Assembly: GCA_029571225.1 (NCBI GenBank)
Contig: JAKPTF010000003.1
Coordinates: forward strand, 1 to 47,271
Length of the DNA: 47,271 nt
DNA from: Candidatus Omnitrophota bacterium
Lineage (GTDB): Bacteria > Omnitrophota > Gorgyraeia > Gygaellales > Profunditerraquicolaceae
Direction of reading: 5' to 3'
The translations under genes were made by a program, and so were the position numbers. How positions within the stretch are numbered: the first letter of the stretch is position 1; each line of letters begins with the position of its first letter. Below, one piece after another: positions 18,439 to 47,270 of the stretch. The notes below the pieces were generated by a model. The model saw nothing but the letters and a program-made list of their open reading frames with translations. It had not been told where the DNA came from and searched no databases.

Positions 18439-18470
18439 TAGGGACGGTTCTCATCACTAAAGGAGGCATC

Positions 18471-19070: not shown

Positions 19071-19089
19071 ATCATAAAAGGAGGCTTCA

Positions 19090-20631: not shown

Positions 20632-21152
20632 TGATGTCCCCGGACGATCTCAAGATCGGCGATGTCATCCTTGTCGCAGGCCGCAACCCTGCGATCGAGA
20701 AGATGCAAAAGAAGGCAGGGTTTGGCGAATCGAGCAAATGGACGCATGTGTGCGGCTGTCTCGGCGGCTACACCTGCATCGAAGCCGCAGTGCCGCGCAG
20801 CCATCTCGTGGATCTGAAAAAGAAGTATCTGGACAAAGGCATTGAGATCAAAGTCCTGCGGCGCAAGGGCCAGACCGACCGCCAGCGCTACAAGGTCGCA
20901 CTCTGGTGGGCGACCATGAACAACCTGCCCTACGACGCCCTGCAGTTCTTCTGGATGCCGCTGTCGCTTTTCTGCGCCTGGATGGGAAGCGCCCTGCACC
21001 GGCTCTTCAGCAGCAGGATGCGGCTGGTATGCTCGGAGCTCATTGCCCAGGGCTTTTACAAGGAAGGCGACTACCTGTTTAACAAACCCGCGCACCTGGT
21101 TGTTCCAGCGGACTTTGATAACCCGCAGCTGTTTGAGGAAGTAAAAGAGTAA
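20628..21152 (+). CDS. YiiX/YebB-like permuted NlpC/P60 papain-like enzyme
   Basis: 'LKIGDVILVAG', 'KWTHVCGCLGGYTCIEAA' (His) and 'VCSELIAQGFY' (Cys). Start may be 20628, 20631 or 20634. Confidence 0.65.
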   Translation: MMMSPDDLKIGDVILVAGRNPAIEKMQKKAGFGESSKWTHVCGCLGGYTCIEAAVPRSHLVDLKKKYLDKGIEIKVLRRKGQTDRQRYKVALWWATMNNLPYDALQFFWMPLSLFCAWMGSALHRLFSSRMRLVCSELIAQGFYKEGDYLFNKPAHLVVPADFDNPQLFEEVKE

Positions 21153-21159
21153 CAAAAAT

Positions 21160-24908: not shown

Positions 24909-24993
24909 ATACTTCTATCCTAAAGGTGGGGCGGAGCAGTCGTTTCTTCAGACTGCGGAATTTTTGTTCAAGAATAGCCATAGGACGAGCTAA
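24886..24993 (+). pseudogene. 5' remnant of a GT4 glycosyltransferase (35 codons then stop)
   Basis: Translates to MHILLANKYFYPKGGAEQSFLQTAEFLFKNSHRTS*, close to the N-terminus of the intact GT at 26108 (MKILLGHKYFYPRSGAEKSFLQTVEILKKNGHKVS). Confidence 0.75.
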
Positions 24994-25114
24994 AAATAGC
25001 AATTATGTGCCACAAGGTACTATTTATTTCCGAAGTTTTTAATGCTCCTTTTCTTTGATTTCATGATTCTGCCCATATTAATTTTTATTAAACCGAAGTA
25101 TATTCTTTCTGTTA

Positions 25115-26107
25115 TTGAAAAACATTTTTGCGGAATTTATTATAGCCTATTTTCAAAAATCAATGTTCCGAATTTTCGCCATAGCTAACAACTATTTCAG
25201 GAGAAGCTGCAGGCTTTATCGTCAAGGTGGTATTTTATTTATTTTAGCAAAGCTAATCCGCAGGTTGCTTCTTTTTTTTAGACCTTTACTAGAAGTGGAT
25301 TGGTTTACTAAAGTTGAGATGTTGCTTTTTCTAGGTTATTGGCCCAATTTAAAAAATCCCAGATCTTTTAATGAAAAAATAGTCTACCGGAAATTATATG
25401 TTAATGTTCCATTAGCTAAAGTTTTGTGTGATAAGTTGGCCGCTCGTGACTATGTGAGAGAAAAAACAGGTAGAGCTGATATTTTGAATGACCTCTATTG
25501 GGTAGGTACCGATGCTAATGATATTCCTTTTGATTCTCTACCTAATAAATACGTTATCAAAGTAACTCATGGTTCCGGTTGGAATATTTTCGTTAAAGAT
25601 AAAACGGCAATAAAAAGGGAAGAGATTCGTGTAAACGTTACTACATGGCTTAAGAGTAAATATTCACTAAGTTCAACTATGATTTCTGAAAAACATTATG
25701 ATGACATCCCCCCTAAGATAATAATCGAAAAATTTATTGATGACTTAAAGTGGGGATTCCCTCTAGATTACAAGTTTTTTTGTTTTTACGGAAAAGCTTA
25801 TTATATACAAGTTGACGTGGATAGATTTGGAGCACATAAGAGAATTTTGTTCAACATTAATTGGCAAGAGATGCCATTTTCTTACGCTTACCCGAAATCT
25901 AAAGAAAGGATAGATAAACCTTTTAAATTTGAAGAAATGAAGTTAATAGCAGAGCAAATTGCGCAAGGATTAGAATTCTGTAGAGTGGACTTATATAATC
26001 CTGATGAAAAAGGGATATTTTTTGGAGAGATTACACTGTATCCTGAAAGCGGTTTAGGTCGATTTATTCCGCGAGAGTGGGATTTTCGTTTGGGAAAATT
26101 ATTATAA
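25115..26107 (+). CDS. TupA-like ATP-grasp family protein
   Basis: 'NPRSFNEKIVYRKLYVNVPLAKVLCDKLAARDYVREKTG', 'YVIKVTHGSGWNIFVKDK', 'IIIEKFIDD', 'FCRVDLYN..EKGIFFGEITLYPESGLGRFIP'. Start uncertain (possibly ATG 25163). Confidence 0.8.
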   Translation: MKNIFAEFIIAYFQKSMFRIFAIANNYFRRSCRLYRQGGILFILAKLIRRLLLFFRPLLEVDWFTKVEMLLFLGYWPNLKNPRSFNEKIVYRKLYVNVPLAKVLCDKLAARDYVREKTGRADILNDLYWVGTDANDIPFDSLPNKYVIKVTHGSGWNIFVKDKTAIKREEIRVNVTTWLKSKYSLSSTMISEKHYDDIPPKIIIEKFIDDLKWGFPLDYKFFCFYGKAYYIQVDVDRFGAHKRILFNINWQEMPFSYAYPKSKERIDKPFKFEEMKLIAEQIAQGLEFCRVDLYNPDEKGIFFGEITLYPESGLGRFIPREWDFRLGKLL

Positions 26108-27331
26108 ATGAAAATTCTCTTAGGCCATAAATATTTCTATCCTAGAAGTGGCGCTGAAAAATCTTTTTTACAAACAGTCGAGATCTTGAAAAAGAACGGC
26201 CATAAGGTTAGTATTTTTTCAATGCGACATCCGCGCAATTTTGCTTCGGAGTATGATAAGTTTTTCGTGAACAATGTTGACTACGATGATAAAAATGCCT
26301 TACATTCAATTCACTACGCGGTAAAACTGCTGTATTCGTTACATGCGAGAAGGAGAATAGAAGCGCTAATCAGGCAGGAGAGGCCTGATATTGCCCACCT
26401 TAACAATATTTATCATCAAGTTTCTCCCTCTATTATTCATTCGTTGAAGAAATGGCGCATACCTATAGTAATGACACTACGAGATTACAAGCTGGTGTGT
26501 GCTTCGTATTCAATGTTTGCCGGTAGCGGAGCGTGTGAGGCTTGCAAGAATGAGAAGTATTATCATTGTGTCCTTAAGAAGTGTGTTAAAGATTCCCGCT
26601 TAAAAAGTTTCTTAAATACGCTTGAGATGTATTTTCATCACAGCCTGCTGCATATTTATAACAAAATTGATGTTTTCATCTCCCCTAGCCAGTTCTTAAA
26701 AGCCAAAACCAGGGAAATGGGTTTTAAGGGGCATATCGAATATCTGCCTAACTTTGTGCAGGTTGATGAATACCAGCCGCGATTCGACTGGCAGGAGCGC
26801 TCGATTGTTTACTTCGGCCGCCTTTCTAAAGAAAAAGGATTAGTGACTCTGCTCAAGGCGATGCAGGGTTTGCCTGACATTAAATTAAAAATTATCGGAG
26901 AAGGCCCTTTAAGAGGATTGCTGGAACAAGAAACTAAAGACCTGAAACTTAAGAATGTTGGATTTCTGGGGTATAAAAACAAAGACGAATTAAACGAAGA
27001 GATTAAAAAATCAATGTTTGTGGTTCTACCATCCGAGTGGTACGAAAATAATCCGCGTACGATTATTGAGGGGTTTGCGCTTGGTAAGCCAGCAGTGGGA
27101 GCGAGGATAGGTGGGATCCCTGAGCTTATCCGCGACAATGAGACGGGGTTGCTTTTTGAGCCGGGCAATGTGGAAGATCTGAAGCAAAAGATTGAAATGC
27201 AGGCAGCGGATTCGGATAAGATTAAACAAATGGGCAAGAATGCGTGGCAGTTTGTAGAACAAGAGCTGAATGAACAAAAGCATTACGCGGGACTGATGAA
27301 AATATACGAACAGGCCAGAACCCATAAATAA
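26108..27331 (+). CDS. GT4-family glycosyltransferase
   Basis: 'YFYPRSGAEKSFLQTVEILKKNGHKVSIFSM', 'VYFGRLSKEKGLVTLLKAM', 'PSEWYENNPRTIIEGFALGKPAVGARIGGIPELI'. Confidence 0.93.
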   Translation: MKILLGHKYFYPRSGAEKSFLQTVEILKKNGHKVSIFSMRHPRNFASEYDKFFVNNVDYDDKNALHSIHYAVKLLYSLHARRRIEALIRQERPDIAHLNNIYHQVSPSIIHSLKKWRIPIVMTLRDYKLVCASYSMFAGSGACEACKNEKYYHCVLKKCVKDSRLKSFLNTLEMYFHHSLLHIYNKIDVFISPSQFLKAKTREMGFKGHIEYLPNFVQVDEYQPRFDWQERSIVYFGRLSKEKGLVTLLKAMQGLPDIKLKIIGEGPLRGLLEQETKDLKLKNVGFLGYKNKDELNEEIKKSMFVVLPSEWYENNPRTIIEGFALGKPAVGARIGGIPELIRDNETGLLFEPGNVEDLKQKIEMQAADSDKIKQMGKNAWQFVEQELNEQKHYAGLMKIYEQARTHK

Positions 27332-27347
27332 AAGCCCCAGACTTAGA

Positions 27348-28259
27348 ATGCGCTTAGTCAAGCCCAAAGATATCAGAAATACCCAATATTTCAGTATAGG
27401 TGCTTTCTTAATAATCCTAAATTATTTTCGCCACCGCTTTCTTGGGTATAAAACAACAAGGGCCTTCCCGATATCCAAGACTTCTCAAGCGGTTGAGTAC
27501 GATCTTAATGTTGTACGAGGATGGGTGAATGCGCTGGCAGATTATACTCAGAACAGCGATTTTCTAAAGGGGAAAGTTGTTTTGGAGCTTGGTCCAGGGG
27601 CTGATCTGGGCATAGGGCTAATACTTCTGGCCATGGGAGCCAGGAAGTATATCGCTTTTGATGTGAATCCGTTAGCCAGGAATACTCCGGTTGAATTCTA
27701 TGATCGGTTATTATCCGTTTTGTCTGCAAAATTCCCGGGCGTAAAGGAAAGCTATCTTAGAGGACAATTGGAAAAGGCTCATGCCGGAAATCCCGAAAAT
27801 CTGGAGTACATTGTTGATAGTAATTTTTATATTGCCGGCTTAAAAGAAAATCCGGAAATTGTTTTCGGGCAGGCAGCTTTTGAACATTTCTTTGACATTC
27901 AAAAATCGTTGAGTGAATTATCTGGCATAGTAAAGCCCGGATGCGTTATGGTTTCCCTGGTAGATTTAAAAACGCATACTGCCTGGATCAGGCCACGGGA
28001 CCCTTTAAACATTTACAGATATGGAAGGAAATTCTGGGGTGCTTTTCAATTTGCGGGGTCTCCTAATAGAATACGAAGCTTTGAATATAAGAATATTTTA
28101 GAAAATAATCATTGGCACAATGTCAAAGTTGAACCATTAACAGTATTGGAAGATTCGTATGTCGAGCAAGTTAAACCAACATTATCGGAGCCATTTAGGT
28201 CATTAGAAACATCTGAACTGCGAAATTTAAGTATTATGCTCTTGGCAACCAAGAGTTAG
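27348..28259 (+). CDS. SAM-dependent methyltransferase-like protein
   Basis: Motif I 'VVLELGPGADLGIGLILLAMGARKYIAFDVN'; 'GQAAFEHFFDIQKSLSELSGIVKPGCVMVSLVDL'. Confidence 0.8.
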   Translation: MRLVKPKDIRNTQYFSIGAFLIILNYFRHRFLGYKTTRAFPISKTSQAVEYDLNVVRGWVNALADYTQNSDFLKGKVVLELGPGADLGIGLILLAMGARKYIAFDVNPLARNTPVEFYDRLLSVLSAKFPGVKESYLRGQLEKAHAGNPENLEYIVDSNFYIAGLKENPEIVFGQAAFEHFFDIQKSLSELSGIVKPGCVMVSLVDLKTHTAWIRPRDPLNIYRYGRKFWGAFQFAGSPNRIRSFEYKNILENNHWHNVKVEPLTVLEDSYVEQVKPTLSEPFRSLETSELRNLSIMLLATKS

Positions 28260-28276
28260 AAAACTTTTTTGACTTC

Positions 28277-30688
28277 ATGCGCAAAATAATAGGGGTCGTA
28301 GTCGTCGTTTTAGCTGTCGGGGTGTTTGCTTACTGGCTTAAGTGCCAGCTGCAGATAAACCTCGTTAAATCTTTTTCCCTATCCCAGATCCTGCCTGTTC
28401 AATCTTTGCAAAAAAGCTGTGCTGTGGCGTATGCATCGGAGTTTGCGCCCGGAAAGACGCTTGTGCTGGAAAAGCCGTCTGACTGGCAGAAAATCTGGAT
28501 GCGCGAAAAGGATTCTGTCAGCGTGGAGTTTAAGGACGCGGGAAAGATCTTTGTGAGTAGCAAAAGCAAGCAGGATTGGTCATTGGCGCATGATTTATTA
28601 GTTGAGGTACAGCCTGGGGATGTGTTTGGCTTTAGCTCGGATATAGTGAATTCCGCTCCGGAGCTTACCTCAAGCGCAAGCGTTGTGCTGTACGACAAGA
28701 ACAAGCAGGTGAGCAAATGGCATTATGGCAGGAAAGGGTTTAGCGGAAAAGGCGTAAAACAGGTTGCCAATGAGTTTGTAGTGCCGTATGGAGTAAGTTT
28801 CATACGGTTTCGGCTGACTGGCTCAGGCGTAGGTAATTCTCAATTCTCCAATGTAAAGTTTTATCGCAAAGAGCGAATTTTTTTAGAACAAAATCCCTTT
28901 GTTTTAGAAAATACTTTTCTTAAGATGACCTTTGAGACACAGGAGAGTCGTATTTCTGTGCTGGATAAGCGTTGCGCAAGGGTTTGGAAAGCAGACATTG
29001 AGTTTGGCGTAAGAAATATTCAACAAAACAATACACAAGATGCGCAGTTTACTTTACTTGATTGGCAGTCATTGCAGGAATATCAGGTAGAAGTTGTGCT
29101 AGCTCAGGATAAGCCGGAGATAATTTTTAAACTGAATGCTCCACCTAATAGGCGGTTTGAAGGGTTAGTGTTTCCTCCGTCATTCGCTACTTCTAATTCT
29201 GCCTTAGTAGTAGCGCCTATCGCAGAAGGTATGCTACTTAACCGCGACGCCTGGCAGGAAGTAGTGCCAGGGGCTGTGCGCTATAAAGGCGGATGGTCAA
29301 TGCCTTTTGTAGGTGTGCTGGATGGTGGCGCGGGGTGGATGGAGATATTTGAGACGCCTTTTGATTTTGAGCTTGTCTCTGTGCAAGATAGGCCAAATTT
29401 ATTTGAGAATAGGTGGGTAGTAGAAAAAAATTTTTTTGGCTATGAAAGGAATATGCGGTATGTGTTTTTTGACCAGCCGTCGTATGTAGCAATGGCGAAA
29501 AGGTATCGCCAATGGGCGCAAGAAAAAGGGCTTGTAGTTACCTTGCGTAATAAAGATAAACTGCGCAATTATAATATAGGTAAGTTGCTTGGTGCTGTAA
29601 ATGTGTGGTTTTGGGGAAGCGATAGACCGCATTTTATTAAAGAACTCGAACGGCTGGGTGTAAAGAAATGTTTGTTTTCAACTGCAGAGAATCGTCAAGA
29701 TATCGTGGAAGCAGATAAGGCAGGGTTTCTTAGCTCGCACTATGACATTTACCAAGACGTATGGCCGCCAATTTACCATGATGTTACTCATCGTCACGAA
29801 GGTTGGCCAGAGGATTTGGTGCTGGATGAACAAGGTGCGCCAATACAAGGATGGGTCATAAAGCGCGGGTTGAAAGAGTATCCGGGTGGGGTGGTATGTT
29901 CAATACCGGGACTTAAGCGAGCAAAAAAGGTAATTGCGGAGGAACTAAAAACCAAGCCCTACACAGCAAGATTTATTGATACTACAACCTCAACTCCATG
30001 GAGAGAATGTTTTAGTCCCAAGCATCCTACGACGCGCAGAGAGGACTTAGAAAATAAGATGAATCTTCTGGCTTTAAGTTCAATTGAGCATGGTTTGGTT
30101 ACAGGAAGCGAGGATGGTGTAGCTGATGCAGTGCCATACTGCGATTATTTTGAAGGTATGCTCAGCATTGGAAAAGGAAGGCTTCCTGAATCAGGTAGAA
30201 ATGTGGCTAAAGTAGAGTATATGCCACCCACAGAAAATTTCTTAAAGTATCAGGTTGGGGTTAATTATAGGATACCTCTATGGGAATTAGTGTTTCATGA
30301 CTGTGCAGTTGCAACATGGTATTGGGGCGATTCCTCTAATCGTATCCCTGAGCTTTGGTGGAGAAAGGACTTGTTTAATATTTTGTATGGAACAATGCCT
30401 TTATGGGCGATTCGTGACTGGGACCATTGGCAGAAACTGAAAATGCGTTTCAGGGATAGTTATCAAAATGTCTGCCCTGTATTTGAGCAAACATCAGCAA
30501 AAGAAATGCTTTTACACAGATTTATTACTGAAGACCATCTTGTACAAGAGACAGTTTTTGACGGCGGGTTAAGCGTTGTGGTTAATTTTGGCGATTCAGA
30601 TTCTGTATTAGAAAAAGTATCTATCCCCGCGCACGGGTTTGTTTTAAGAGACGACTCCAAGATTCTGAAACAAGGGGTTTGCAGGTAA
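28277..30688 (+). CDS. Membrane-anchored glycoside hydrolase-like protein of uncertain family
   Basis: N-terminal TM; beta-sandwich-like N-half; C-half with 'LGAVNVWFWGSDRPHFIKELERLGVKKCLFSTAENRQDIVEADKAGFLSSHYDIYQDVWPP', 'ARFIDTTTSTPWRECFSPKHPTTRRED' resembling TIM-barrel glycosidases. Confidence 0.55.
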   Translation: MRKIIGVVVVVLAVGVFAYWLKCQLQINLVKSFSLSQILPVQSLQKSCAVAYASEFAPGKTLVLEKPSDWQKIWMREKDSVSVEFKDAGKIFVSSKSKQDWSLAHDLLVEVQPGDVFGFSSDIVNSAPELTSSASVVLYDKNKQVSKWHYGRKGFSGKGVKQVANEFVVPYGVSFIRFRLTGSGVGNSQFSNVKFYRKERIFLEQNPFVLENTFLKMTFETQESRISVLDKRCARVWKADIEFGVRNIQQNNTQDAQFTLLDWQSLQEYQVEVVLAQDKPEIIFKLNAPPNRRFEGLVFPPSFATSNSALVVAPIAEGMLLNRDAWQEVVPGAVRYKGGWSMPFVGVLDGGAGWMEIFETPFDFELVSVQDRPNLFENRWVVEKNFFGYERNMRYVFFDQPSYVAMAKRYRQWAQEKGLVVTLRNKDKLRNYNIGKLLGAVNVWFWGSDRPHFIKELERLGVKKCLFSTAENRQDIVEADKAGFLSSHYDIYQDVWPPIYHDVTHRHEGWPEDLVLDEQGAPIQGWVIKRGLKEYPGGVVCSIPGLKRAKKVIAEELKTKPYTARFIDTTTSTPWRECFSPKHPTTRREDLENKMNLLALSSIEHGLVTGSEDGVADAVPYCDYFEGMLSIGKGRLPESGRNVAKVEYMPPTENFLKYQVGVNYRIPLWELVFHDCAVATWYWGDSSNRIPELWWRKDLFNILYGTMPLWAIRDWDHWQKLKMRFRDSYQNVCPVFEQTSAKEMLLHRFITEDHLVQETVFDGGLSVVVNFGDSDSVLEKVSIPAHGFVLRDDSKILKQGVCR

Positions 30689-30773
30689 CATAATGGGGGA
30701 CGCTTCTCCTTAACCCTACCCCTTGCGTATAAAGAGTTATGCAGCAGGAAGGACCGTTTCCAAAGGATGAAAG

Positions 30774-31673
30774 ATGAAACTCCACGGCTCTATTATCGTA
30801 ACCTACCGTTGCAACGCGCGCTGCAATATGTGCGACGTCTGGAAGTTTCCCTCAAAGCCAGCAGATGAGATTGGCGTTGAGGTTATTCGTAAGTTGCCAC
30901 AGATGTTTTTTGCAAATGTAACCGGTGGAGAACCATTTGCCAGACAGGATTTGCCTGATATTATCACCGAACTGCGCAAGAAAGCAAAACGCATTGTTAT
31001 TAGCACGAACGGTTTTTTTACTGACCGGATTGTGACTTTGTGCAAGCGGTACCCTGATCTGGGAATTCGTATCAGCATTGAGGGTTTGCAGGAATCGAAT
31101 GATGCGATCAGGGGAATGCCGGGGCAGTATGAGCGGACGCAGGCAACACTCAAGCAGCTTCAGGAAATGGGGCTGAAGGATATTGGGTTTGCCATGACTG
31201 TGCAGGATAAGAATTATCAGGATTTGGTTACTTTATATAAGATGGCCCGTGATCTGGATTACGAGTTTGCCACGGCTACGGTGCATAATTCGCATTATTT
31301 CCATAAGTGGGATAACAAGGTAGAGAAGCAGGAAGAGGTATTTGCAGCATTCAGGGCATTGATCGCTGAGTTATTGAAGTCGAAAAAACCCAAAGAATGG
31401 TTCCGGGCGTATTTTAATCATGGATTGATCAATTATATCCAGGGCAACCCGCGGTTTCTGCCGTGTGAGATGGGGAAAGACGGGTTTTTTGTTGATCCTT
31501 ACGGCGATGTTCTGGCATATAACGGTATGGATGAGAAGATGCCGATGGGGAATCTCAAGGAACAGAGTTGGGATGAGATCTGGGATAGCAAGCGGGCTCA
31601 GGAAGTGCGCCAGGCAGTCAAAAACTGTAAGAAGAATTGCTGGATGATCGGTTCTGCGGCTCCGGCGATCTGA
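30774..31673 (+). CDS. Radical SAM protein (SPASM-like C-terminus)
   Basis: 'YRCNARCNMCDVW' CxxxCxxC, 'NVTGGEPFARQDL', 'ISIEGLQESNDAIRG', C-terminal 'FLPCEMGKDGFFVDPYGDV...CKKNCWM'. Confidence 0.9.
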   Translation: MKLHGSIIVTYRCNARCNMCDVWKFPSKPADEIGVEVIRKLPQMFFANVTGGEPFARQDLPDIITELRKKAKRIVISTNGFFTDRIVTLCKRYPDLGIRISIEGLQESNDAIRGMPGQYERTQATLKQLQEMGLKDIGFAMTVQDKNYQDLVTLYKMARDLDYEFATATVHNSHYFHKWDNKVEKQEEVFAAFRALIAELLKSKKPKEWFRAYFNHGLINYIQGNPRFLPCEMGKDGFFVDPYGDVLAYNGMDEKMPMGNLKEQSWDEIWDSKRAQEVRQAVKNCKKNCWMIGSAAPAI

Positions 31674-31723
31674 CACCATCCTCTTAAGCCAATCTGGTGG
31701 GTTCTTAAGAATAAGATCAAAAG

Positions 31724-32836
31724 ATGAAGATAGTTGCGCTAGGATTGCGGGGATTTCCAGACGTGCAGGGCGGGGTGGAAGCTCATTGCCGGAATCTTTA
31801 TCCGAGGCTGGTCAAGCTGGGGTGTGAGGTGACGGTGCTTGCGCGGCAGCCGTATGTGGGATCAAGGGAATATTCGTATGAAGGAGTGACGATCAAGCCG
31901 ATTCCGTGCACAAGGAATAAATTCCTCGAGGCGTTTACTCATACCAGGAAAGGGGTTCGTGTTGCGCAGGGCTTGAAGCCGGATATTCTACATATTCACG
32001 CGGTCGGGCCTGCGTTGTTCGTGCCTATGGCGCGGGAGCTGGGCATGAAGGTTGTGATGACGCACCACGGCCCGGATTATGAGCGCAAGAAATGGAACTG
32101 GGTGGCGAAGATGGTGCTGCGCGAAGGCGAAAAGCGCGGGTGCGTGAATGCGAATGAGGTGATTTGCATTTCAAAGCAGATCGCGCTTGATGTTAAGCAG
32201 AAGTTCAGTAGAGATTCGCACGTTATTCCGAATGGGGTGATGATGCATGAGCGGGTCACTACTGATGAAGTATTAAGGAAGCACGGCCTTGAGAAGGGCA
32301 AATATATTCTTGCTGTGGGCAGGTTTGTGCCGGAAAAGGGGTTTGCGGAACTTATTGAGGCGTGGCGGGGGTTGGAACCCCGTGGCGTATGGAAGTTGGT
32401 GATCGTTGGCGATGCTGACCATGAGGATGCGTATAGCAGGAAGTTGAAAGAAATGGCTGCGGAAGCGCCTCATGTGGTGCTGACGGGGTTTTTAAGCGGC
32501 ATGCCGCTTGCTGAAGTTTACAGCCAAGCAGGATTGTTCGTTCTGCCGTCGTATTACGAGGGCCTGCCTATTGTACTCCTTGAGGCAATGAGTTACGGGC
32601 TGTCGTGCGTTGTTTCGGACATACCGGCGAACAGGGAAGTGCAGTTAAGCGAGGACAGGTATTTTAATCCAGGGGATGTGCGTGCAATAGCGCAAAAGAT
32701 CAAGGAATTCATGGTAAAGCCGATGGATGAAACTGGGAAAGCCCGGCAAAGGGACATGGTAAGCCAGAGGTATGATTGGGATAAGATCGCGCAGGAGACG
32801 CTAAGGGTGTATCAGCAAGTTATAGCCCGAAAATAA
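31724..32836 (+). CDS. GT4-family glycosyltransferase (DUF1972-type N-terminus)
   Basis: 'GLRGFPDVQGGVEAHCRNLYPRL', 'TRNKFLEAFTHTRKGVRVA', 'AVGRFVPEKGFAELIEAW', 'PSYYEGLPIVLLEAMSYGLSCVVSDIPANREV'. Confidence 0.93.
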   Translation: MKIVALGLRGFPDVQGGVEAHCRNLYPRLVKLGCEVTVLARQPYVGSREYSYEGVTIKPIPCTRNKFLEAFTHTRKGVRVAQGLKPDILHIHAVGPALFVPMARELGMKVVMTHHGPDYERKKWNWVAKMVLREGEKRGCVNANEVICISKQIALDVKQKFSRDSHVIPNGVMMHERVTTDEVLRKHGLEKGKYILAVGRFVPEKGFAELIEAWRGLEPRGVWKLVIVGDADHEDAYSRKLKEMAAEAPHVVLTGFLSGMPLAEVYSQAGLFVLPSYYEGLPIVLLEAMSYGLSCVVSDIPANREVQLSEDRYFNPGDVRAIAQKIKEFMVKPMDETGKARQRDMVSQRYDWDKIAQETLRVYQQVIARK

Positions 32837-33455
32837 ACTCGAGATCTTGAGGAGATAGGGATTTTGAAAAATCAGAGATGAACTGTTTCCCAAGCGCGAT
32901 CGCGCCGGAGGTGGTTTGTTCAGACGACGGAATATCGAGCCGGACCATGAGTCCGGCTTTTTTCTTTCCTATAAGGGAAGCCCAGAATTCTTTTGCTTTC
33001 TGACCGGTCCAGCCCGTGATCTGTTTGTCAATGCAGAGCCAGTACATAAGCACATACCCCTCGCCGGGTTTCTGGGTGTAGAGGGTTGTTGTGCGGAAGG
33101 TTTTGCTGCCTACCTCAATCGTTTCGTCGCTCAATTCCTTGATGGTATAGCCGGATGAGCCGAAGCACACCTTGGGGTTGTGGAAGTTTCCGGCGTCGAG
33201 GATGAGAAAGAGCAGGCTTGCGCCTTCTTTGTTGGTATAGGTGCGGGCGAATATGTCGCTGATGAACTTGTAGCGGTCGTCGTTGATGTTGAGGCTCTGG
33301 GAAACATCCTTGCCTGACCACTGGCCGAATTCAGCGGGGATGTTAATCTGCTTGAGGATGTTCAGGCCCTGGTATTTCGGTTTGGGCAAAGCAAAGGCGA
33401 TGAGCATGGCGATGCCGATTATTGCGATGACAATTATCTGTTTAAGATTCTTCAT
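32820..33455 (-). CDS. epsI: EpsI-family exosortase-associated protein
   Basis: 'YKFISDIFARTYTNKEGASLLFLILDAGNFHNPKVCFGSSGYTIKELSDETI', 'LMYWLCIDKQITGW', adjacent to and overlapping the exosortase gene. Confidence 0.85.
   Translation of the reverse strand: MKNLKQIIVIAIIGIAMLIAFALPKPKYQGLNILKQINIPAEFGQWSGKDVSQSLNINDDRYKFISDIFARTYTNKEGASLLFLILDAGNFHNPKVCFGSSGYTIKELSDETIEVGSKTFRTTTLYTQKPGEGYVLMYWLCIDKQITGWTGQKAKEFWASLIGKKKAGLMVRLDIPSSEQTTSGAIALGKQFISDFSKSLSPQDLEFIFGL
32939..32963 (+). terminator. Intrinsic terminator for the GT gene, embedded antisense in epsI
   Basis: GCCGGAC-catga-GTCCGGC followed by TTTTTT on the + strand, about 100 bp after the GT stop. Confidence 0.6.
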
Positions 33456-34275
33456 GGATGGCCCGTTTCATTTTGAGATACGCCTCGATGCCAAGAAGCC
33501 CGAGGATCATGATCACAAATACAATGATGCCGCTGAAGTCATGGAAGAATCCCTGGCCTGTTTCCTGGCCGAAGTAGTAGGTGACCAGGCACAGGGAAAG
33601 CACGCGCAGGAGGTTGCCGAAAAGCGCCATGGGCACGACTGACAGAAGGATGATGAACTTGTTCTTGCGGGTTTCTTTTAGGATATGGATATATGCAAGG
33701 CCGAGGGAGAGCATGGTGATGAGCGAGCGGAAGCCGGAGCAGGGCGCGCCCATAAAGATCTCTTGGTTGCCGATGTAGAGCAAAAGGCCCTGGCGCATGA
33801 CAGGGTAATGGAACGATTTGAGGATGCCGCCTGCGACTGCGGAGATGCCGTAGCGCATGGGAAGCGTGATGGCGTCGAGGATGCCCAGAGGCGGCGGGAT
33901 CATGAGCGCTAAATAGGCGATCGGAAATGCGAGCGTGCGCACTGCTTTGGGGCCGTAGAGGAAGCCGATGAGTCCGATAAGCACCGGGATCATGGAGCCT
34001 GCGGTGAGCGAGAGATACTCGTTGCGCCAGCCGAGGATGAAGAGCAGGATGCCGGCAAGGAGGAACGCGGGGAACAAGAAGCCAGTGCCGGCGGGTTTCG
34101 CTTTTGCAATGATCGCCATGAGCTCTTTGCGTTTGCGCCAGGCAAGGAACAGCGATACTGGCAGAATGAAATACGCGTGGGTGTAGTCGATGATCTCCCA
34201 GCGGCTGCGGTAGAGCTGGTACACGACCGGGCTGTAGAGGATCGCGACTAATGCCCAGACAATGTAGTTGAACAT
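33442..34275 (-). CDS. xrt: Exosortase (EpsH-family archaeosortase/exosortase)
   Basis: Polytopic; catalytic-type motifs 'GAPCSGFRSLITMLSL' (Cys), 'LLRVLSL' (Arg), 'GFFHDFSGIIVF' (His). Confidence 0.92.
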   Translation of the reverse strand: MFNYIVWALVAILYSPVVYQLYRSRWEIIDYTHAYFILPVSLFLAWRKRKELMAIIAKAKPAGTGFLFPAFLLAGILLFILGWRNEYLSLTAGSMIPVLIGLIGFLYGPKAVRTLAFPIAYLALMIPPPLGILDAITLPMRYGISAVAGGILKSFHYPVMRQGLLLYIGNQEIFMGAPCSGFRSLITMLSLGLAYIHILKETRKNKFIILLSVVPMALFGNLLRVLSLCLVTYYFGQETGQGFFHDFSGIIVFVIMILGLLGIEAYLKMKRAIHEES

Positions 34276-38780: not shown

Positions 38781-41700
38781 ATGTTAAAGATGATCAATCG
38801 TATTGTTGCGTTTTCAGTAATGTTCTGCCTTGTGTTCGAGCAGTCGGGCTTTGCGCAGGTTGCGCCGGATATGAATATACCGGCATACCTGAACGGACTG
38901 GTCAGGGCTGATAAATTCAGGCCTATGCATATGCGCTGGCTGTCGTATGATCCAATCAATAATTCATTCGACCTGGCTGTAGAACGAGGAGATGATGCGA
39001 GGGTCAAAGAGGCGGATATCAAAAGATCAACTGCGAAGATCATGGAATATTTCCAGATCGGCCTGCGGCTTCCGGACAGCATGTTCTGGGTAAACCTGCG
39101 GCCTGATGCCGCTGATCAGATCATTGATCCGTATCTGGCGCGCACTGACCTTGGCAAAATAATGCTTGAGGCTGACCTCCAGCTTAAAAAGGACCTTGCC
39201 CGGTTTACTTCGCCTGACACAAAGGATGGAAGGGAATATTGGAACAAATTATATGCCCGCGCAGAGCAGCTTTTCGGCGCAGAAGGATTGACTATACCTG
39301 CCGTAACCCGCCCCTGGATCGTCCCCAATGAGATCATTATCAAAGAATATAAAGACGGCGCCTATGTGTATAAGGCGACCATGAAGGTTATGCTGGAGCA
39401 GGATTATCTGAAAGACGCGCCGGGGTATACCTTTGACGACCCGCGCATGAAAGAGTTGAACGAGTATTCTTCGGAACTTGTGCGTCAACTAATCATCCCG
39501 CAATTGACCAGAGAAGTCAATTCATCAAAACGGTATTCAGGATTGCGCCAGGTATTTTATTCATTGGTGTTATCGCAGTGGTTCAAACAGAGGTATGCGA
39601 AGCGCCAGGGGCAGCAGGGTTCGGCAGTGACTGATATGATTGATAGCCGTGATCTGAGCGGACTGACGTCTGCGGCCGCATGGTCGAAAGACATATATTT
39701 CAACCAGTATGTCCAGTCGTTCAAGAAAGGCGAATACAACAAGCAAGAGACAGTTAACGGCCTTAATGGCATAACGATCAGGCAGTATTTCTCGGGCGGT
39801 ATCCTTTTCAGGCTTCAGCAGGGTGTTGAGGCCATGGGCCGGAATGCGCCGCTTATGACGATTTTGCCTGCTGCGGCAGAGGCAAGCCCTGAGCGGAGCC
39901 TGCCGGTCAGGGTGCTGGGCAATTCCTCGGAGTATAACCTCGGATTCAACGGCGCTCGGTTAAAGATCCACGTGCTTGAACATGCGGATCTGCGGGCAGA
40001 TACCGTTGAGCAACCGCAGAAGAATGACGGCGGCGACGCTCAGGAAGAGACGATTGATTGGAAAAAACGCATGCAGCGTTTGCTGATGTTAGAAATCGCC
40101 TCAATCGTATTGACTACGGGATCTATGTTGGGGTTCTTTTTTTCGGTTTTCTATTTCCCGCATGCTGCGGCGCTCGTTTCTACATATTTTGGGACTATTA
40201 CAGGGGGTATTGCATGGCAAGAACTTGATAAGAAGCGGGAAGACGCCGAGCGCAAGCGTCAGATAGCTGAACAACCGTATTCTCCGGCTATCAAGGCGTT
40301 TCTGAGCGTGCCGCCGCAATATCGCAGTGCCATTCTCAGCGCTCAGGATCATGTCTATGGGTATTGGCGAGTTCTTGAAATCCTGCGAGACATGCGGTAT
40401 GCGGATCCGGATCCCGAGATTGCCAGTGCGCTTGAGGCCATATTGCACAAGCCGTATTCGCTGGCGCAGAAACTGCGGAACGTGTATCTGGTGTTCGCAA
40501 ACCTTGTTTGGTTTGAGTTGACAGTCAAGCTTCAGGTGGCGAATATACTTAAGAAATATTACAGCCAGAACGATCCTGGCCGGGTTTCCGCGTTTCTGGA
40601 AGAGAACTTCGAGCTGTTATCTGAGCTGATGAACCAGGCGTCTGTCCGCGCGTGGTGGGATAAAATTTTTGATGAGCGCTTTTTCCAAAGGGAAATGATA
40701 GCCAGCGCAAGGCTTATGGCTGAGTTATACGGCAGGGACTATTTGCTCTTGCATACCGGCGATTTTAACGACGAGGCTGTATATTTCATACAGACAGCGC
40801 TTTGGGAGATGAATGCTTATGACAGGACCCTGGCAGGTGCCGACAGCCGCAAAGACGGCGGCTACGGCTTGAGCGCGCCGAAACTGGCGGCGTGGAGCGT
40901 CGGCAGCGCGATCGCAACATTCGGATTCATATATTGGCAGTTGAACTCAATGCTTTTAGCGCTTGGGTATGCTGCGTTCGCCGGAATCATGCAGGCGGCG
41001 CTTTACAGCGATCCGGTGATGAACAAGATAATGGCCACGCAGGACCCGTCTTTCGAGTTTGGCGGAATGCGGCGCAGGGACGGCGGCGCGCTTCAAGACA
41101 TCGACAGCCTGCTGGCTGATTTGAAGAGCGATAATAAAGTGCTTCGCGACAACGCGATCGACGGATTATCCGGATCGCGCGATCCGCGAGCTGTAACGGC
41201 TTTGGGCGATCTGCTGCTGGAAACTGCAGAGCTATCGCAGAAGTTAGGCAAAAGTACTGTGGGGGCGACTGATCCTAGCGCACTTGACCAAAAGATCAGA
41301 GAGAGTGTGAGTCTTGTCGAGAAGCTTATTAAGGCTCTGGCAAAGACCCGCAACGAACGCGCGTCGGATTATCTTCTTAAAGCGTACAATTTTGAGTATC
41401 CCGGGTTCGCGTTCTTTCCCAATGGCACTGGCGTAATGGGTGGACCAGGATGGGCATCGTCGTACTGGGATGTTTTAATTCCTGCGCAGATCATCAAGGC
41501 GCTCGGCAGGACCGGCGGTGCGCAGGCGCTTTATTTTTTAATGGAACGCGCTCAAGATGGCTATCCTGTCGGCATGGGGGGAGGCCATTTCGCGTGGATA
41601 CCGATGGCGGCCATCGAGGGGCTGGCAATGATCGGGGACAAAAAAGCATTGCCGTTCGTGCGGTCGCGCGCACGCGCGCCGTTCATGGGCAATATTGTCG

Positions 41701-44700
41701 CTGATGCCGAAGCGGTGATCGTGGAATCCGTGCGCCAGCGCGCGGTTATTGCCGTTGCAGAGGTTTTTCCGACAGCAATATCCATTTTCGGCACGCAGGT
41801 GTCGTTATCGAAGGATGAGATCGATTACAGCGTATATGACGTAACAAAGCTGGTTTATGAAGCGTTTGTAAAAAATACCTATAAGACGCGCGAGGAGCGC
41901 ATGAGGGGTGTTGCAGAACGGGATCGCTGGTCCCATCGAGTGCCGTCAGGCCAGGACGTGATCTATCATTTTCAGGAGGATTCCATATTTGAAGGCCTGA
42001 TGATGGGCGATAAAGAGATCAGCGTTATCAGGAAATATATTGACGTCCGGAAGAAGAACGCCGGCATTCTCGAGCGGTTGGGCCTGCGCAGCTCCCGCAT
42101 TGAAGCGATTGAAAAGGACGTCATGGTGCGGCTCGGGCAGCAAGGTGAGCAGCGCGACGGCGGTGAGGATGAAATACGCCCATGGTCGAAGGAATATTTC
42201 AGCGCGCCTGAGTTCTTGAACAGGCAGATAAACTTGGCTCAGAAGAAGCAGTCGCTGGGCAGATTGCTCAAGGTCTTCATGGGCTTGACCGTGGCTGCTG
42301 TAGGCGCAGTCATTGTCCATGCTCTAATTATACCGGGGACCAAGCTGTCGAATATCGTTTTTGTGGGCTTATGCGCATACGTGGCTATTGTTGCCGCAGT
42401 GATGATATATGAGTCAAGGATAGCCTTGAGCGAGCCGGATATTTTGCCGTCAGAGCTTGTCAGATGGATCCAGGAGCAGGTGCAAGACCCGTTCGTCCCG
42501 AGGTATATATCAGCCGCGACTCTTTCGATGTATGTCACACATCAGCCCAAATTAATATTGCATAAGGAAGATAGGGGATTTGGCAATTATGACCGGGTTT
42601 TGTATGCGTATCCCGGGCAGGGGGCTGAGCGGCAGATTAGTTCTGCCAAATACAATGCGATCATTCAAAGCATCGAGAATTATTTCGCCGCTATGCAAGA
42701 CGTCGTAAAGAACCACTGGTTCAGTCGGTATGGACCGAAGAAAGGCGAGATGATGGAAAAATATCTCGAAAAGCAGCAAGACTTTTATTTCTACCGAAAA
42801 GCGTATGCCCGCAGGCCTTATATCCGGGAGATAAACAGGTATCATGTCCACACGTTAAACTATGATGAGAAACGGGAGTTCGAGTCTTTGCGGTATCAAG
42901 GCCGGGATACCGGGCCTTTCTTGGAGAAGATATTTGACCGGAATGTCAGGGATATCTTTTCCCGGTATGATCAAGCTCGGCAGGATGCAGGCGCAGGCAT
43001 ACAAAAAGACGGCGGGTTAGCGGTTCAGGCCGAAAATGCCATGGCAGACTCGCAGTATGTCCTGCTGGTATTAAACGGAATAAGCGAAATTCAGAACAGG
43101 AGAGGGACAAAGTACGCTCTGACCGGAGAGGAATGGAAAAAAGCGATTGCGGCCGTGCTGCACAGCCTTTCTGTTATCGGGTTGGATCGCCTCCTTGAGG
43201 TGCGTAATAATATCGAGCCCTCAGGCTTAAGCGATGCGCAGAAATTCATCCTTGACCGCGCCATCAATGATTTAACAACTGCGCAGGTTTTGAGCAAGGT
43301 CGATGCCGGAGAGGCTGTTGTATCAGGCAAGGACGGCGGTATCGTTGAGCTGTCGCAGATGATAAGGGATAATTTTACCGCGATGACCATTAATGAATAC
43401 AATGCCGCATACGCCCAGCTTGAGTCATATTTGAGAAACCTGAATGCGCAATTGAAGGAACGTGGCATAGCTATGCAGGATTATGTTACGATAGGTGACG
43501 CTATGAAGGCTTTGAAGGATGACCGTGTCCTCAAGCTGCTCAATAAGAAGAACTTCGCGTTTATAACCAGATTAACAGGCCCGCTCGTGGATATTGTTGA
43601 TGCAAGCGGCCAGACCGTTACACAGACTCAGGAATGGGTGGCTCACATGTTCGGCCTGCCGCACCGGGCAGCGTATGCGCTCGTCATAGGCCCGAATGAC
43701 GAAGTGGTTTTCCAAAGGCTGGCCCATGGCCGGGTTGAAGCAGGCTCTCTTGCCGCTTTCGGAAGCCATGTTGAGCCGGGCGCTGATGAGAAAGAAACGG
43801 TCCGCAGAGAGCTTATGAAGGATTTGCGCCTGCAGGCCCTGAAAGGCAGGCTGTTGCCGTTAGGCAAAGCGGGCCAGTTCACCTATGATGTTAAAATGAC
43901 GAACGTTGAGGATAAATGGCTCAATAATAACGAATACCGCGCCTTGTTTGCGTATTTTCTCACGCAGGAAGAGTTCGAATGGATCCGCCGGGACCGCAAT
44001 GAGATGGTCAGGGACCGGAGTTTGATGGCGTTTGAGGAGTTCGTTCAGTCGGGGCTCTGGCCGGTGCGTAATTACGCGATAGTTTCGTTAGATGCTCTGA
44101 AAAAGGCAGCCGCGGATGGCAAGCACGCATTCTATATGGAGGAAGATTATGTGGACAGGGCCGAGTCAGGCCGGGTTGCGTTCAATTCGATCCTTGAGGG
44201 TATCGTGATTTCTCAGGCGCGGAATGACACGGCAAGCCTCACGGTTCTGGACGAACTGCAGGAGCTGTTGGATAAGGAGAAAGCTGCAGGGCTGAGCATA
44301 ACTGAACGGTTGAAAGGGAAGTTGAGCTCAAAGTTGAGTTCTGTCAAAGACCGCATCAGGCCGCAATCCGATACGTCTCAGCTCCAGCGCGACGGCGGTG
44401 CTACGGAGAAAAGGATACGGGAGATCGTCGAGCTTCTGAACATTCTGCGCAAGGAAAATATTATTCTTGAGAATGAATTAGCAAGCGCCGGTCCTGCAGA
44501 GGCAAACGGTATACGCGAAAGGATAGCGACAAACCGGCATTTAATCGAGCAGTTGACTGAAGAGCTTGAGGCAAAGCAGGAATATCTCAGGAATCTTCCG
44601 CCTGCGCAGATCTGGGCACAGGGAAGGATCGTCCAGGGCAGGAAATACTACATAAAAGGCGCTCCCGAGGAGTTGCGGGAGCTTTACGGCAGCGAACGGC

Positions 44701-45905
44701 CTGTGTTCGAGGTTGAGGGGCTATATGAAGGGCCCCTTATGGAAGGCCAGAAGGGATATTTCTTTACCGGACATGTCTATCAAGGGAATTTGAGGATATC
44801 TGCTGTCGTGAGCATCGATGACCTCGAGGAGATACCGGATGAAGACGCTGACGCGTTAGACGGGGGCATGCCTGTGGCAGACAGATACAGGGCTGTGGAT
44901 CACGCGGGCCAGGTGAAGAGCGAGGCAGGCGCGAGATCGAGCTCATCAACGGCGTCGGGCGACAGTACTGCGGATAACACCTCAAATGATCTCTTTGACA
45001 GCGGAAAAAATCTTCCTGAAGACAAAGATTGGGAGAACCGACTTGTGGAGGTGCAGGATCATAACCAGGCAGTGCGTGTTGCATATGCGTTGCGTGCATT
45101 AGCCCACCTTGCAAAGAACGAAATCGATACGGAGGTTGACAACAACATAGTATCGCTTTATCAGAAAGTAGTCCAGGATCTGCGCGCTGCTGCGCTGGGG
45201 CATGAAAGGACCGTTGTGTCATATGCCGATGGGAGGAATCGAAAGCTGTTGATCTCGACCTATACGCAAAGGAATGGAGACGGGCCTGCTGATTTTAAGG
45301 TTAACAACACAGGCAATTGGCAAGTTTATCTGCTCACTGACAGCGAAGATATCGTACTTAAATCGCCGGTTGGCATATACCGTATCCGCACAACGCAGGC
45401 TAATAAATACAAGGTAAAGATTAAGTTCCTGAAGACGATAGAGGAGAAATTTGACGATCAGGATGCTGATGGTCGGGAAACAGAAGCAGTGCAGGCTGGT
45501 GAGGCTCATCAGGACGCTGACAGGCGCGCGATTTTGCTTCAGCAGATCAAAAAACTGGATGCTGCGGTAAGTGACGGCGGTAAGGATCAGCCCGCAACAG
45601 TCGGCGGTGTGGATTTCAGGGCTATTCCTGCTGTAGTAGTGCCTGCGGTCGGGGGGGTAGCGGGCGCTGTTGTCGTGAATATACAGGATTTGAACAGGCA
45701 ATGGAATGCTTTACAGAAGAAAGTCGCAGACGGCCAGATGCCCTATGATGATATTCGAGCCTATATAGCTGCATGCTGCGCGAATAAAGAGGCGTGTGCT
45801 AATCTAAAAAAGGCGTCCCTCTGGATTTCCGAAGTTTTAAAGATGGAAGAAGACGCCTGCGTGGAGTCCTCCGCAAAGATGAAGGAGCTGATAGCTATTT
45901 TGTAA
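38781..45905 (+). CDS. Giant (2374 aa) secreted/membrane mosaic protein with nine DGG module-boundary motifs; includes HEAT-like and Nudix-like segments
   Basis: RBS 'atggagg'; signal-like 'MLKMINRIVAFSVMFCLVFEQSGFAQVAP'; DGG at aa 416, 692, 767, 1126, 1410, 1518, 1871, 2027 and 2265; TM hairpins after the 1st, 2nd and 4th DGG; HEAT-like 'LQDIDSLLADLKSDNKVLRDNAIDGLSGSRDPRAVTALGDLL'; Nudix-like 'AAFGSHVEPGADEKETVRREL'. Confidence 0.85.
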   Translation: MLKMINRIVAFSVMFCLVFEQSGFAQVAPDMNIPAYLNGLVRADKFRPMHMRWLSYDPINNSFDLAVERGDDARVKEADIKRSTAKIMEYFQIGLRLPDSMFWVNLRPDAADQIIDPYLARTDLGKIMLEADLQLKKDLARFTSPDTKDGREYWNKLYARAEQLFGAEGLTIPAVTRPWIVPNEIIIKEYKDGAYVYKATMKVMLEQDYLKDAPGYTFDDPRMKELNEYSSELVRQLIIPQLTREVNSSKRYSGLRQVFYSLVLSQWFKQRYAKRQGQQGSAVTDMIDSRDLSGLTSAAAWSKDIYFNQYVQSFKKGEYNKQETVNGLNGITIRQYFSGGILFRLQQGVEAMGRNAPLMTILPAAAEASPERSLPVRVLGNSSEYNLGFNGARLKIHVLEHADLRADTVEQPQKNDGGDAQEETIDWKKRMQRLLMLEIASIVLTTGSMLGFFFSVFYFPHAAALVSTYFGTITGGIAWQELDKKREDAERKRQIAEQPYSPAIKAFLSVPPQYRSAILSAQDHVYGYWRVLEILRDMRYADPDPEIASALEAILHKPYSLAQKLRNVYLVFANLVWFELTVKLQVANILKKYYSQNDPGRVSAFLEENFELLSELMNQASVRAWWDKIFDERFFQREMIASARLMAELYGRDYLLLHTGDFNDEAVYFIQTALWEMNAYDRTLAGADSRKDGGYGLSAPKLAAWSVGSAIATFGFIYWQLNSMLLALGYAAFAGIMQAALYSDPVMNKIMATQDPSFEFGGMRRRDGGALQDIDSLLADLKSDNKVLRDNAIDGLSGSRDPRAVTALGDLLLETAELSQKLGKSTVGATDPSALDQKIRESVSLVEKLIKALAKTRNERASDYLLKAYNFEYPGFAFFPNGTGVMGGPGWASSYWDVLIPAQIIKALGRTGGAQALYFLMERAQDGYPVGMGGGHFAWIPMAAIEGLAMIGDKKALPFVRSRARAPFMGNIVADAEAVIVESVRQRAVIAVAEVFPTAISIFGTQVSLSKDEIDYSVYDVTKLVYEAFVKNTYKTREERMRGVAERDRWSHRVPSGQDVIYHFQEDSIFEGLMMGDKEISVIRKYIDVRKKNAGILERLGLRSSRIEAIEKDVMVRLGQQGEQRDGGEDEIRPWSKEYFSAPEFLNRQINLAQKKQSLGRLLKVFMGLTVAAVGAVIVHALIIPGTKLSNIVFVGLCAYVAIVAAVMIYESRIALSEPDILPSELVRWIQEQVQDPFVPRYISAATLSMYVTHQPKLILHKEDRGFGNYDRVLYAYPGQGAERQISSAKYNAIIQSIENYFAAMQDVVKNHWFSRYGPKKGEMMEKYLEKQQDFYFYRKAYARRPYIREINRYHVHTLNYDEKREFESLRYQGRDTGPFLEKIFDRNVRDIFSRYDQARQDAGAGIQKDGGLAVQAENAMADSQYVLLVLNGISEIQNRRGTKYALTGEEWKKAIAAVLHSLSVIGLDRLLEVRNNIEPSGLSDAQKFILDRAINDLTTAQVLSKVDAGEAVVSGKDGGIVELSQMIRDNFTAMTINEYNAAYAQLESYLRNLNAQLKERGIAMQDYVTIGDAMKALKDDRVLKLLNKKNFAFITRLTGPLVDIVDASGQTVTQTQEWVAHMFGLPHRAAYALVIGPNDEVVFQRLAHGRVEAGSLAAFGSHVEPGADEKETVRRELMKDLRLQALKGRLLPLGKAGQFTYDVKMTNVEDKWLNNNEYRALFAYFLTQEEFEWIRRDRNEMVRDRSLMAFEEFVQSGLWPVRNYAIVSLDALKKAAADGKHAFYMEEDYVDRAESGRVAFNSILEGIVISQARNDTASLTVLDELQELLDKEKAAGLSITERLKGKLSSKLSSVKDRIRPQSDTSQLQRDGGATEKRIREIVELLNILRKENIILENELASAGPAEANGIRERIATNRHLIEQLTEELEAKQEYLRNLPPAQIWAQGRIVQGRKYYIKGAPEELRELYGSERPVFEVEGLYEGPLMEGQKGYFFTGHVYQGNLRISAVVSIDDLEEIPDEDADALDGGMPVADRYRAVDHAGQVKSEAGARSSSSTASGDSTADNTSNDLFDSGKNLPEDKDWENRLVEVQDHNQAVRVAYALRALAHLAKNEIDTEVDNNIVSLYQKVVQDLRAAALGHERTVVSYADGRNRKLLISTYTQRNGDGPADFKVNNTGNWQVYLLTDSEDIVLKSPVGIYRIRTTQANKYKVKIKFLKTIEEKFDDQDADGRETEAVQAGEAHQDADRRAILLQQIKKLDAAVSDGGKDQPATVGGVDFRAIPAVVVPAVGGVAGAVVVNIQDLNRQWNALQKKVADGQMPYDDIRAYIAACCANKEACANLKKASLWISEVLKMEEDACVESSAKMKELIAIL

Positions 45906-45906
45906 A

Positions 45907-47270
45907 GGTAATGTCAAATAAATTGTGTAAATTCTTTTAAAGGTTTTTCTTCCCATTTGGAGTTCAAACGGTTAAAGATGGCGTAAATAATGCGACTAAC
46001 ACTGTCGTAATTGGTAAAACATCCCATAGGCCTAGATCTACGTCTGACTTCACGGAATGATCGTTCGATAATGTTAGTAGTACGAATCTGACGACGAATA
46101 AATACACGGAACTGTTCTTTAATAGGTATGGTTAAGAAGGCCAAGAGCTCGTCCATATCGCGTTCAAGACATGCAACTGCTTCAGGTGCGACGGTATACC
46201 AGTGTTTGCGAAGGATTTTGAAGGTAGCTACTGCTTCTCTATGGGTAGAAGCGTTGTAAATATTACGCGCATCCAGCTTAAAGGGTTTAATATCATCCTT
46301 TTTAAGATACTTCGTAGCGTTTCGCAGTTTATGCACCCAGCATCTTTGGTGCTTGGCGTGAGGATAGACGATTTCGATGGCGTTAATAAAACCTTTGGAG
46401 CCGTCGGTAACGATCATCTTGAGATTTCTGCCTTCGAGTCCGCGTTTAAACAGGTCGTTGAGGAAGCCTTCGCAGGCAGCGTTAGATTCGGCATTGGCGA
46501 TTGTAAACGCGATCAGCTCTTTTTTACCGAATACGGTAATGCCATAAGCAACCAGGATAAGGATTTTCTTAGCTTTGAGCGAGCCTTTGACAGATATGGC
46601 AATCCCGTCTAGGAATAGGAATTGGTACTCATCAAGAAGTTTGCGTTGATGGAATTCTTTGACGCTTGAATCCAGTCTTTTAGTTATACGAGAGATACCA
46701 GAAGCGGAGATTGTTGTGCCAAGAACTGGTTTAAGCGTTTCAGCAACGTCTCTGGTGGATATACCCCGCAGGAATACATTGCAAACGAGGTCATCGACTG
46801 TTTGTTGTCTGCGGTGATATCGAGCGAATACCGACGGCCTGAATAATCCCCGGCGTGATCGAGGGACTGCGATTCGTTCTATAGGGCCGAAGGTGGTATC
46901 AAGATTGCGGCAGTAATGTCCGTTACGGTAGTCTAAACGATTTTCTCCGGCTCTTTGATACGGTTGTGTCCGCATGTATTGGATCATTTCTTCATCCAGG
47001 GTGTCCTCAATAAGGCTTTTGGTTAACTTACGCAGGTACGAGTTGACATCTATCCAGAAGTCTTTAGGATCTATTTGGTTAACAAAATCCTTGACCCTGC
47101 CCCAACGATGCTTTAAAGTGTTATAGGTTTGATTCATGGGCGTATCCTTTCTGTTGGGGTAGACGTTTCCGCGTTCACCCTAGGTTGGTTAAGAAATTGT
47201 TTCCAAACAGAAAGATACGCCTTTTTTAACTTTTAGTAAAGCGAATTTACACACAATCGAGTATACTACC
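45907..47270 (-). mobile_element. IS256-family insertion sequence, apparently complete to both terminal repeats
   Basis: Left GGTAATGTCAAATAAATTGTGTAAATTC (45907-45934) and reverse complement of right end GGTAGTATACTCGATTGTGTGTAAATTC (47243-47270) are 28-bp imperfect TIRs sharing GGTA and TGTGTAAATTC. Confidence 0.8.
45914..47137 (-). CDS. IS256-family (mutator-type) transposase
   Basis: 'DLVCNVFLRGISTRDVAETL', 'FLFLDGIAISVKG', 'MIVTDGSKGFINAIEIVYPHAKHQRCWVHKLRN', 'RTTNIIERSFREVRRRSRPMG'. Confidence 0.95.
   Translation of the reverse strand: MNQTYNTLKHRWGRVKDFVNQIDPKDFWIDVNSYLRKLTKSLIEDTLDEEMIQYMRTQPYQRAGENRLDYRNGHYCRNLDTTFGPIERIAVPRSRRGLFRPSVFARYHRRQQTVDDLVCNVFLRGISTRDVAETLKPVLGTTISASGISRITKRLDSSVKEFHQRKLLDEYQFLFLDGIAISVKGSLKAKKILILVAYGITVFGKKELIAFTIANAESNAACEGFLNDLFKRGLEGRNLKMIVTDGSKGFINAIEIVYPHAKHQRCWVHKLRNATKYLKKDDIKPFKLDARNIYNASTHREAVATFKILRKHWYTVAPEAVACLERDMDELLAFLTIPIKEQFRVFIRRQIRTTNIIERSFREVRRRSRPMGCFTNYDSVSRIIYAIFNRLNSKWEEKPLKEFTQFI

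Follow-up and report, generated by a model that had tools for sequence, protein, structure and literature searches.

Short lineage-specific peptides appear to join, and perhaps mark for cutting, the modules of giant Omnitrophota proteins

The preprint 'Giant genes are rare...' is reportedly the main giant-gene account. Giant ORFs (>20 kb) have been described in Omnitrophota (Seymour et al., 2023; PMC10066038), and PMC12057145, which cites that preprint, states that the post-transcriptional integrity of giant Omnitrophota proteins remains unclear. The published giant-ORF accounts emphasize the scarcity of annotated domains, together with adhesion and predation, and the passages of PMC10066038 and PMC12057145 consulted make no mention of a joint motif, of dialects of such a motif, of shared N- and C-domains or of glycolytic cargo. 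The giant ORFs of PMC10066038 and the protein reported here are alike in belonging to the same phylum and in being very long, exported by prediction, partly transmembrane and of unclear function. The ORF studied here (7,125 bases) is shorter than the >20 kb of the giant class, which is exceeded by a 144.9-kb ORF of 48,300 codons in the same genome that carries joints of the same type. A literature search, the main giant-gene preprint excluded, returned nothing relevant on Omnitrophota polyproteins, KDGG linkers, giant proteins with glycolytic enzymes or exported glycolysis. In the literature searched there was no description of the joints, their dialects or the cargo, while giant Omnitrophota ORFs are already published, and priority is not certain.

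The window, that is, the whole stretch of DNA analysed, comprises 47,271 nucleotides from a Candidatus Omnitrophota bacterium (GCA_029571225.1, contig JAKPTF010000003.1). Positions 38781-45905 of its forward strand form one frame of 2,374 codons without interruption, as a preliminary description made from the letters alone had stated, and all features of the protein given below lie on that strand. The protein begins with a signal-peptide-like N-terminus that is conserved among paralogs (aa 1-25, MLKMINRIVAFSVMFCLVFEQSGFA before Q, 38781..38855), followed by a conserved N-terminal domain ending at YFSGG (aa 26-345, 38856..39815), and its last part is a C-terminal domain (aa 2274-2374, 45600..45902), likewise conserved, whose first residues are GGVDFRAIP; that the block from 'VGGVDFRAIP' is common to the paralogs is an addition to that description. 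An exopolysaccharide-type gene cluster (15893-34275) with exosortase EpsH (33442-34275) and DUF3485 (32820-33455) lies upstream of the ORF, and a Mutator-family transposase gene on the minus strand (45914-47137) is convergent with it and ends 8 bases past its stop codon.

About ten further ORFs of the same genome share the first 345 residues, in whole or in part (39-61% identity), or the last 110 (24-39%), while their middles are unrelated; against eight paralogs, the N-domain of the window protein has 47-62% identity. Three features define the family here, namely a conserved N-domain (about 340 aa) that follows a signal-like N-terminus, a C-domain beginning GG(I/V)DF and a joint motif between modules, and the window protein possesses all three. 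The preliminary description ascribed a similar N-terminus to large Omnitrophota proteins, and relatives across the phylum do share the N-domain, which is present in 71 of 237 phylum genomes, many with several copies, and is accompanied by a signal-like N-terminus in 91 of 93 proteins by a simple hydropathy and charge test. From 208 relatives detected in public genomes with names, the 77 best loci were retained; almost all of these are labelled Omnitrophota, a few 'bacterium' only and one Colwellbacteria; this last contig (L090) holds an Omnitrophota-type N-domain protein, and its label is probably a binning error. AlphaFold gives the N-domain a confident core (aa 50-340, pLDDT mostly above 80-90), for which there was no Pfam match, no trustworthy PDB sequence match and nothing significant by Foldseek against PDB (best E 0.047, TM 0.12); the C-domain likewise had no convincing match in PDB. 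In another, short type of protein, part of which resembles the N-domain (L014:3789-5105 and L169:1141-2418), YFSGG passes directly into GGIDWRSIP or GGVDLRDI, hinting that the cargo of the longer relatives may have been inserted at this point. The window protein is a member of a large multi-paralog Omnitrophota family, apparently undescribed, of carrier proteins that are exported by prediction.

Between its constant ends the window protein carries nine DGG motifs, with the aspartates exactly at the residues reported earlier and with K or R preceding six of the nine. They are NDGG at aa 416 (40026..40034), lying within a pLDDT<50 segment (aa 405-430); KDGG at aa 692 (40854..40862); RDGG at aa 767 (41079..41087), with a HEAT match beginning 9 aa later; RDGG at aa 1126 (42156..42164); KDGG at aa 1410 (43008..43016), in a low-pLDDT inter-helix loop; KDGG at aa 1518 (43332..43340), where the homologous module of relatives has SSAI instead; RDGG at aa 1871 (44391..44399) and LDGG at aa 2027 (44859..44867), both covered by an AlphaFold model; and SDGG at aa 2265 (45573..45581), immediately ahead of the C-terminal domain, a position that joints also occupy in other family proteins. 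Shuffles of the window protein gave means of 0.71 DGG and 0.09 [KR]DGG, with maxima of 6 and 3 over 5,000 shuffles, against the 9 and 6 observed. In the 48,300-codon ORF, [KR]DGG occurs 47 times against 1.6 expected, and in the own-genome set 82 times against 2.9 when residues were shuffled within 30-residue windows, whereas 253 non-family ORFs drawn from 16 stretches of the same genome (90,098 aa) hold none against 3.5 expected. The order of the letters is specific as well, since the family and giant ORFs of this genome have 55 KDGG and only 0-13 of each alternative order. The DGG joint recurs in further large proteins of this genome and genus, as had been anticipated; the preference for K or R before it holds in the genus of the window, but other DGG-using genomes carry different residues there.

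That the DGG motifs fall between modules, the central suggestion of the preliminary description, agrees with both domain matches and structure models. In the family and giant proteins none of 114 DGG sites lies inside a Pfam envelope, against 18.7 expected, with the reservation that the giant ORF had been divided at DGG sites before the scan, which could hide a split domain; the domains seen to run on past a cut, those of glycogen debranching enzyme and starch synthase, did this where the cut had been placed arbitrarily and not at a DGG. All five modelled DGG sites of the window protein (416, 1410, 1518, 1871 and 2027) fall within segments of pLDDT below 50 or at their borders, the last four in a second, shallow model (5 sequences, mean pLDDT 65), and this modelled position supports joints, short of proof; a 13-row alignment of the C-terminal half was left out of folding because its Nudix rows were misaligned. 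By Pfam and by the two AlphaFold models, the sites thus lie between rather than inside folded modules, as in a polyprotein. The same modules were moreover found in different proteins and in different orders, the arrangement that had been proposed as a check.

Among the module labels proposed earlier, the HEAT repeats (aa 776-814, 41106..41222; Pfam HEAT_2, E 2.8e-6) and the hydrophobic segments (aa 1-19, 434-452, 723-741 and 1166-1210) stand, while the Nudix label has only a weak match (PF00293, aa 1627-1756, E 4e-4, 20.8 bits against a curated cut-off of 21.1). The module concerned (aa 1522-1805, 43344..44195) resembles the NUDIX hydrolase family by this match, and four other genomes encode homologs of it. 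However, the Nudix box GX5EX7REUXEEXGU is not intact in the window, where it reads as the degenerate GSHVEPGADEKETVRRELMKDLRL with altered acidic residues (RELMKDLRL), whereas homologous modules keep, for example, REELLEELSL. Because the box is degenerate here and looks more intact in the modules of other genomes, the window copy (43659-44048) may be inactive. Among the loci examined of G205, a genome of the same genus, no ortholog of the whole protein was found, the end domains alone being in common, and among the order's other genomes that were searched (128 in all) none matched aa 416-1409.

Most other genera have few DGG and are instead enriched in SS(P/A)(V/I/L), often ASSPV or ASSAI, a motif that occurs 137 times in family proteins against 16 expected and 26 times against 22 in the other ORFs of the same loci. 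The motif replaces DGG at the joints of the same modules. The Nudix module is preceded by KDGG in the window and by SSAI in three foreign genomes (G122, at L070, G240 and G162), and its copy in a fourth (G241) has no visible joint; phosphoglycerate kinase is preceded by KDGG in an ORF of the window's genome on contig C26, by SSPV in L048, by SSSPI in L026 and by QDGG in G232; and in two genera the GAPDH module is closed by a DGG joint (YAKDGG and THRDGG). One protein, L065, has DGG joints like the other proteins of its own genome, and its N-domain groups with those of SSxx proteins; as a single case it lends thin support to a joint independent of the N-domain. Because the same modules carry different joints by genome, and with the case of L065, the joint seems to be a property of the genome, not of the module or the N-domain, and one that can change in chemistry. 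Among the 61 rows of the tree, 18 show no clear dialect and were left unclassified. A candidate third dialect, 'EKDFP', was rejected as an internal repeat of one protein (L082).

The giant ORF of the window's genome (G000) is an open frame at C26:29654-174553 (loci L116-L123), with 48,300 codons and no stop across 144.9 kb in the assembly as given. It has a signal-like N-terminus, 91 DGG sites and domains that include phosphoglycerate mutase, glycogen enzymes, AAA ATPases, VWA and M50, among others. Four ORFs with signal-like N-termini adjoin it on C26 (fusions C26:5099-28043; L115, L116). One carries phosphoglucose isomerase (a weak match), one aldolase, phosphofructokinase and GAPDH, one pyruvate phosphate dikinase, and one triosephosphate isomerase along with phosphoglycerate kinase and enolase (the last two at C26:5099-12031). 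Several of the glycolytic matches are partial (aldolase, isomerases), and key catalytic residues seem by eye to be retained in phosphofructokinase (TMDND), GAPDH (SCTSN) and enolase (SHRSGET). The same genome has an ordinary stand-alone phosphoglycerate kinase (C79), which scores 524 bits where the fused one scores 277, and such pairs of stand-alone and fused kinase exist in six other family genomes. Fused glycolytic copies recur in other genera (L026, L048, L049, L081, L136 and L139), among them the N-domain proteins L026 and L048. These fusions, whose export is predicted from the signal-like N-termini, hold almost the whole of glycolysis in a second copy.

Between unrelated modules, which are often copies of ordinary metabolic enzymes, stands a short peptide that varies with the lineage, suggesting that coded joints are where giant bacterial proteins are put together and perhaps cut. 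The architecture found here runs from a signal peptide through a conserved N-domain and a varying set of cargo modules to a conserved C-domain; family members share their ends, (K/R)DGG stands between modules, and SS(P/A)(V/I/L) replaces it in sister lineages. On the sequences compared there is strong support for modules that make up a kit, delimited by joints and assembled through recombination, and this reading is highly probable. We propose that the chain would be exported by Sec, and that a factor acting in trans, with a preference that has shifted from lineage to lineage, could recognize the joint; this factor would most likely be a protease that releases the modules after export. Such cutting is our leading reading, to which we give an even chance. 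It is favoured because the exact letter order, the confinement to one class of exported proteins and the exchange between lineages resemble a recognition site. It is weakened because about 43% of the DGG sites in the own-genome set lack a preceding K or R, which is loose for a protease site, because some proteins show neither motif clearly and the G241 Nudix copy has no visible joint, and because the joints are unevenly spaced, the 48,300-codon ORF having runs of about 5,000 residues that contain no DGG. A further point against cutting is that the residues of DGG and SSP are of the kind usual in turns and linkers.

As the main alternative, the joints could be a passive standard linker, namely a turn or flexible sequence spread by copying at recombination, with neither recognition nor cutting, and with lineage founders that happened to differ. 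This alternative, possible if somewhat doubtful, accounts by founder effect for the dialects, the loose K/R position and the joints without motif; modules clearly move between proteins, and a modest codon excess, with GACGGCGG at 57 of 73 [KR]DGG against about 44-57% from local context, could reflect copying. However, the flanks share no sequence from -12 to +15, so that copying would have to be limited to four codons. A passive linker also needs a composition and not the exact order that the KDGG counts reveal, and at the same module joint the motif has been exchanged as a unit, not merely drifted.

Recognition without cutting, wherein the joint would serve as a site of glycosylation, cross-linking or docking that arranges the modules on the surface, is quite improbable. 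The serines of SSP and SSA, and the position of the window gene downstream of the exopolysaccharide and exosortase cluster, would suit it, but KDGG offers no hydroxyl acceptor, so that one modification cannot serve both dialects, and gene neighbourhood alone is weak evidence. Self-cleavage at the chemically labile Asp-Gly bond, proposed in the preliminary description, is very improbable and largely refuted by the dialect switch: DGG does include Asp-Gly, but most other genera carry SS(P/A)(V/I/L) and thus no Asp-Gly at the same joints, and ordinary DG is common inside these proteins (240 DG without a following G). Because the same modules are flanked by DGG or SSxx according to lineage, a lineage-specific recognized joint is favoured over Asp-Gly chemistry. 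A DNA-level element (uptake sequence or recombination site) of which KDGG is the mere translation is mostly refuted and hardly tenable: the motif codons are biased (GAC 93%, GGC 84%), but the apparently strong nucleotide signature of GACGGCGG was weakened by the codon-context control (DG pairs use GAC at 70-85%, GG pairs start with GGC at 63-67%), and frame specificity speaks against such an element, the giant ORF having GACGGCGG sixty times in frame, once in other frames and once antisense.

With a coded joint, any giant ORF whose dialect is known can be divided into modules before its structure is predicted, and the exact peptide termini to look for in existing proteomes can be foretold; one such proteome, of Ca. 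Velamenicoccus archaeovorus (PXD025008), is cited in PMC12583861, in which a search returned no test of termini. Exported second glycolytic copies in several genera are unexpected and would alter the genome-based metabolic reading of small, possibly predatory bacteria. It is an unlikely though conceivable extension that giant chains of Omnitrophota are exported and cut at the lineage-specific peptides to give working glycolytic and glycogen enzymes, and with them a glycolysis outside the cytoplasm, for example for prey contents.

Among known systems, viral-type polyproteins have in common with the Omnitrophota family many modules per chain and, between them, a short repeated peptide that varies with lineage; they are, however, cleaved at fixed short sites, while the joint reported here is looser and its cleavage is a proposal. 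Polymorphic exported proteins, such as polymorphic toxins, resemble it in a constant N-terminus, a variable payload and many paralogs per genome, whereas the Omnitrophota family has a constant C-terminus too, payloads of the housekeeping-enzyme type and several payloads in one chain.
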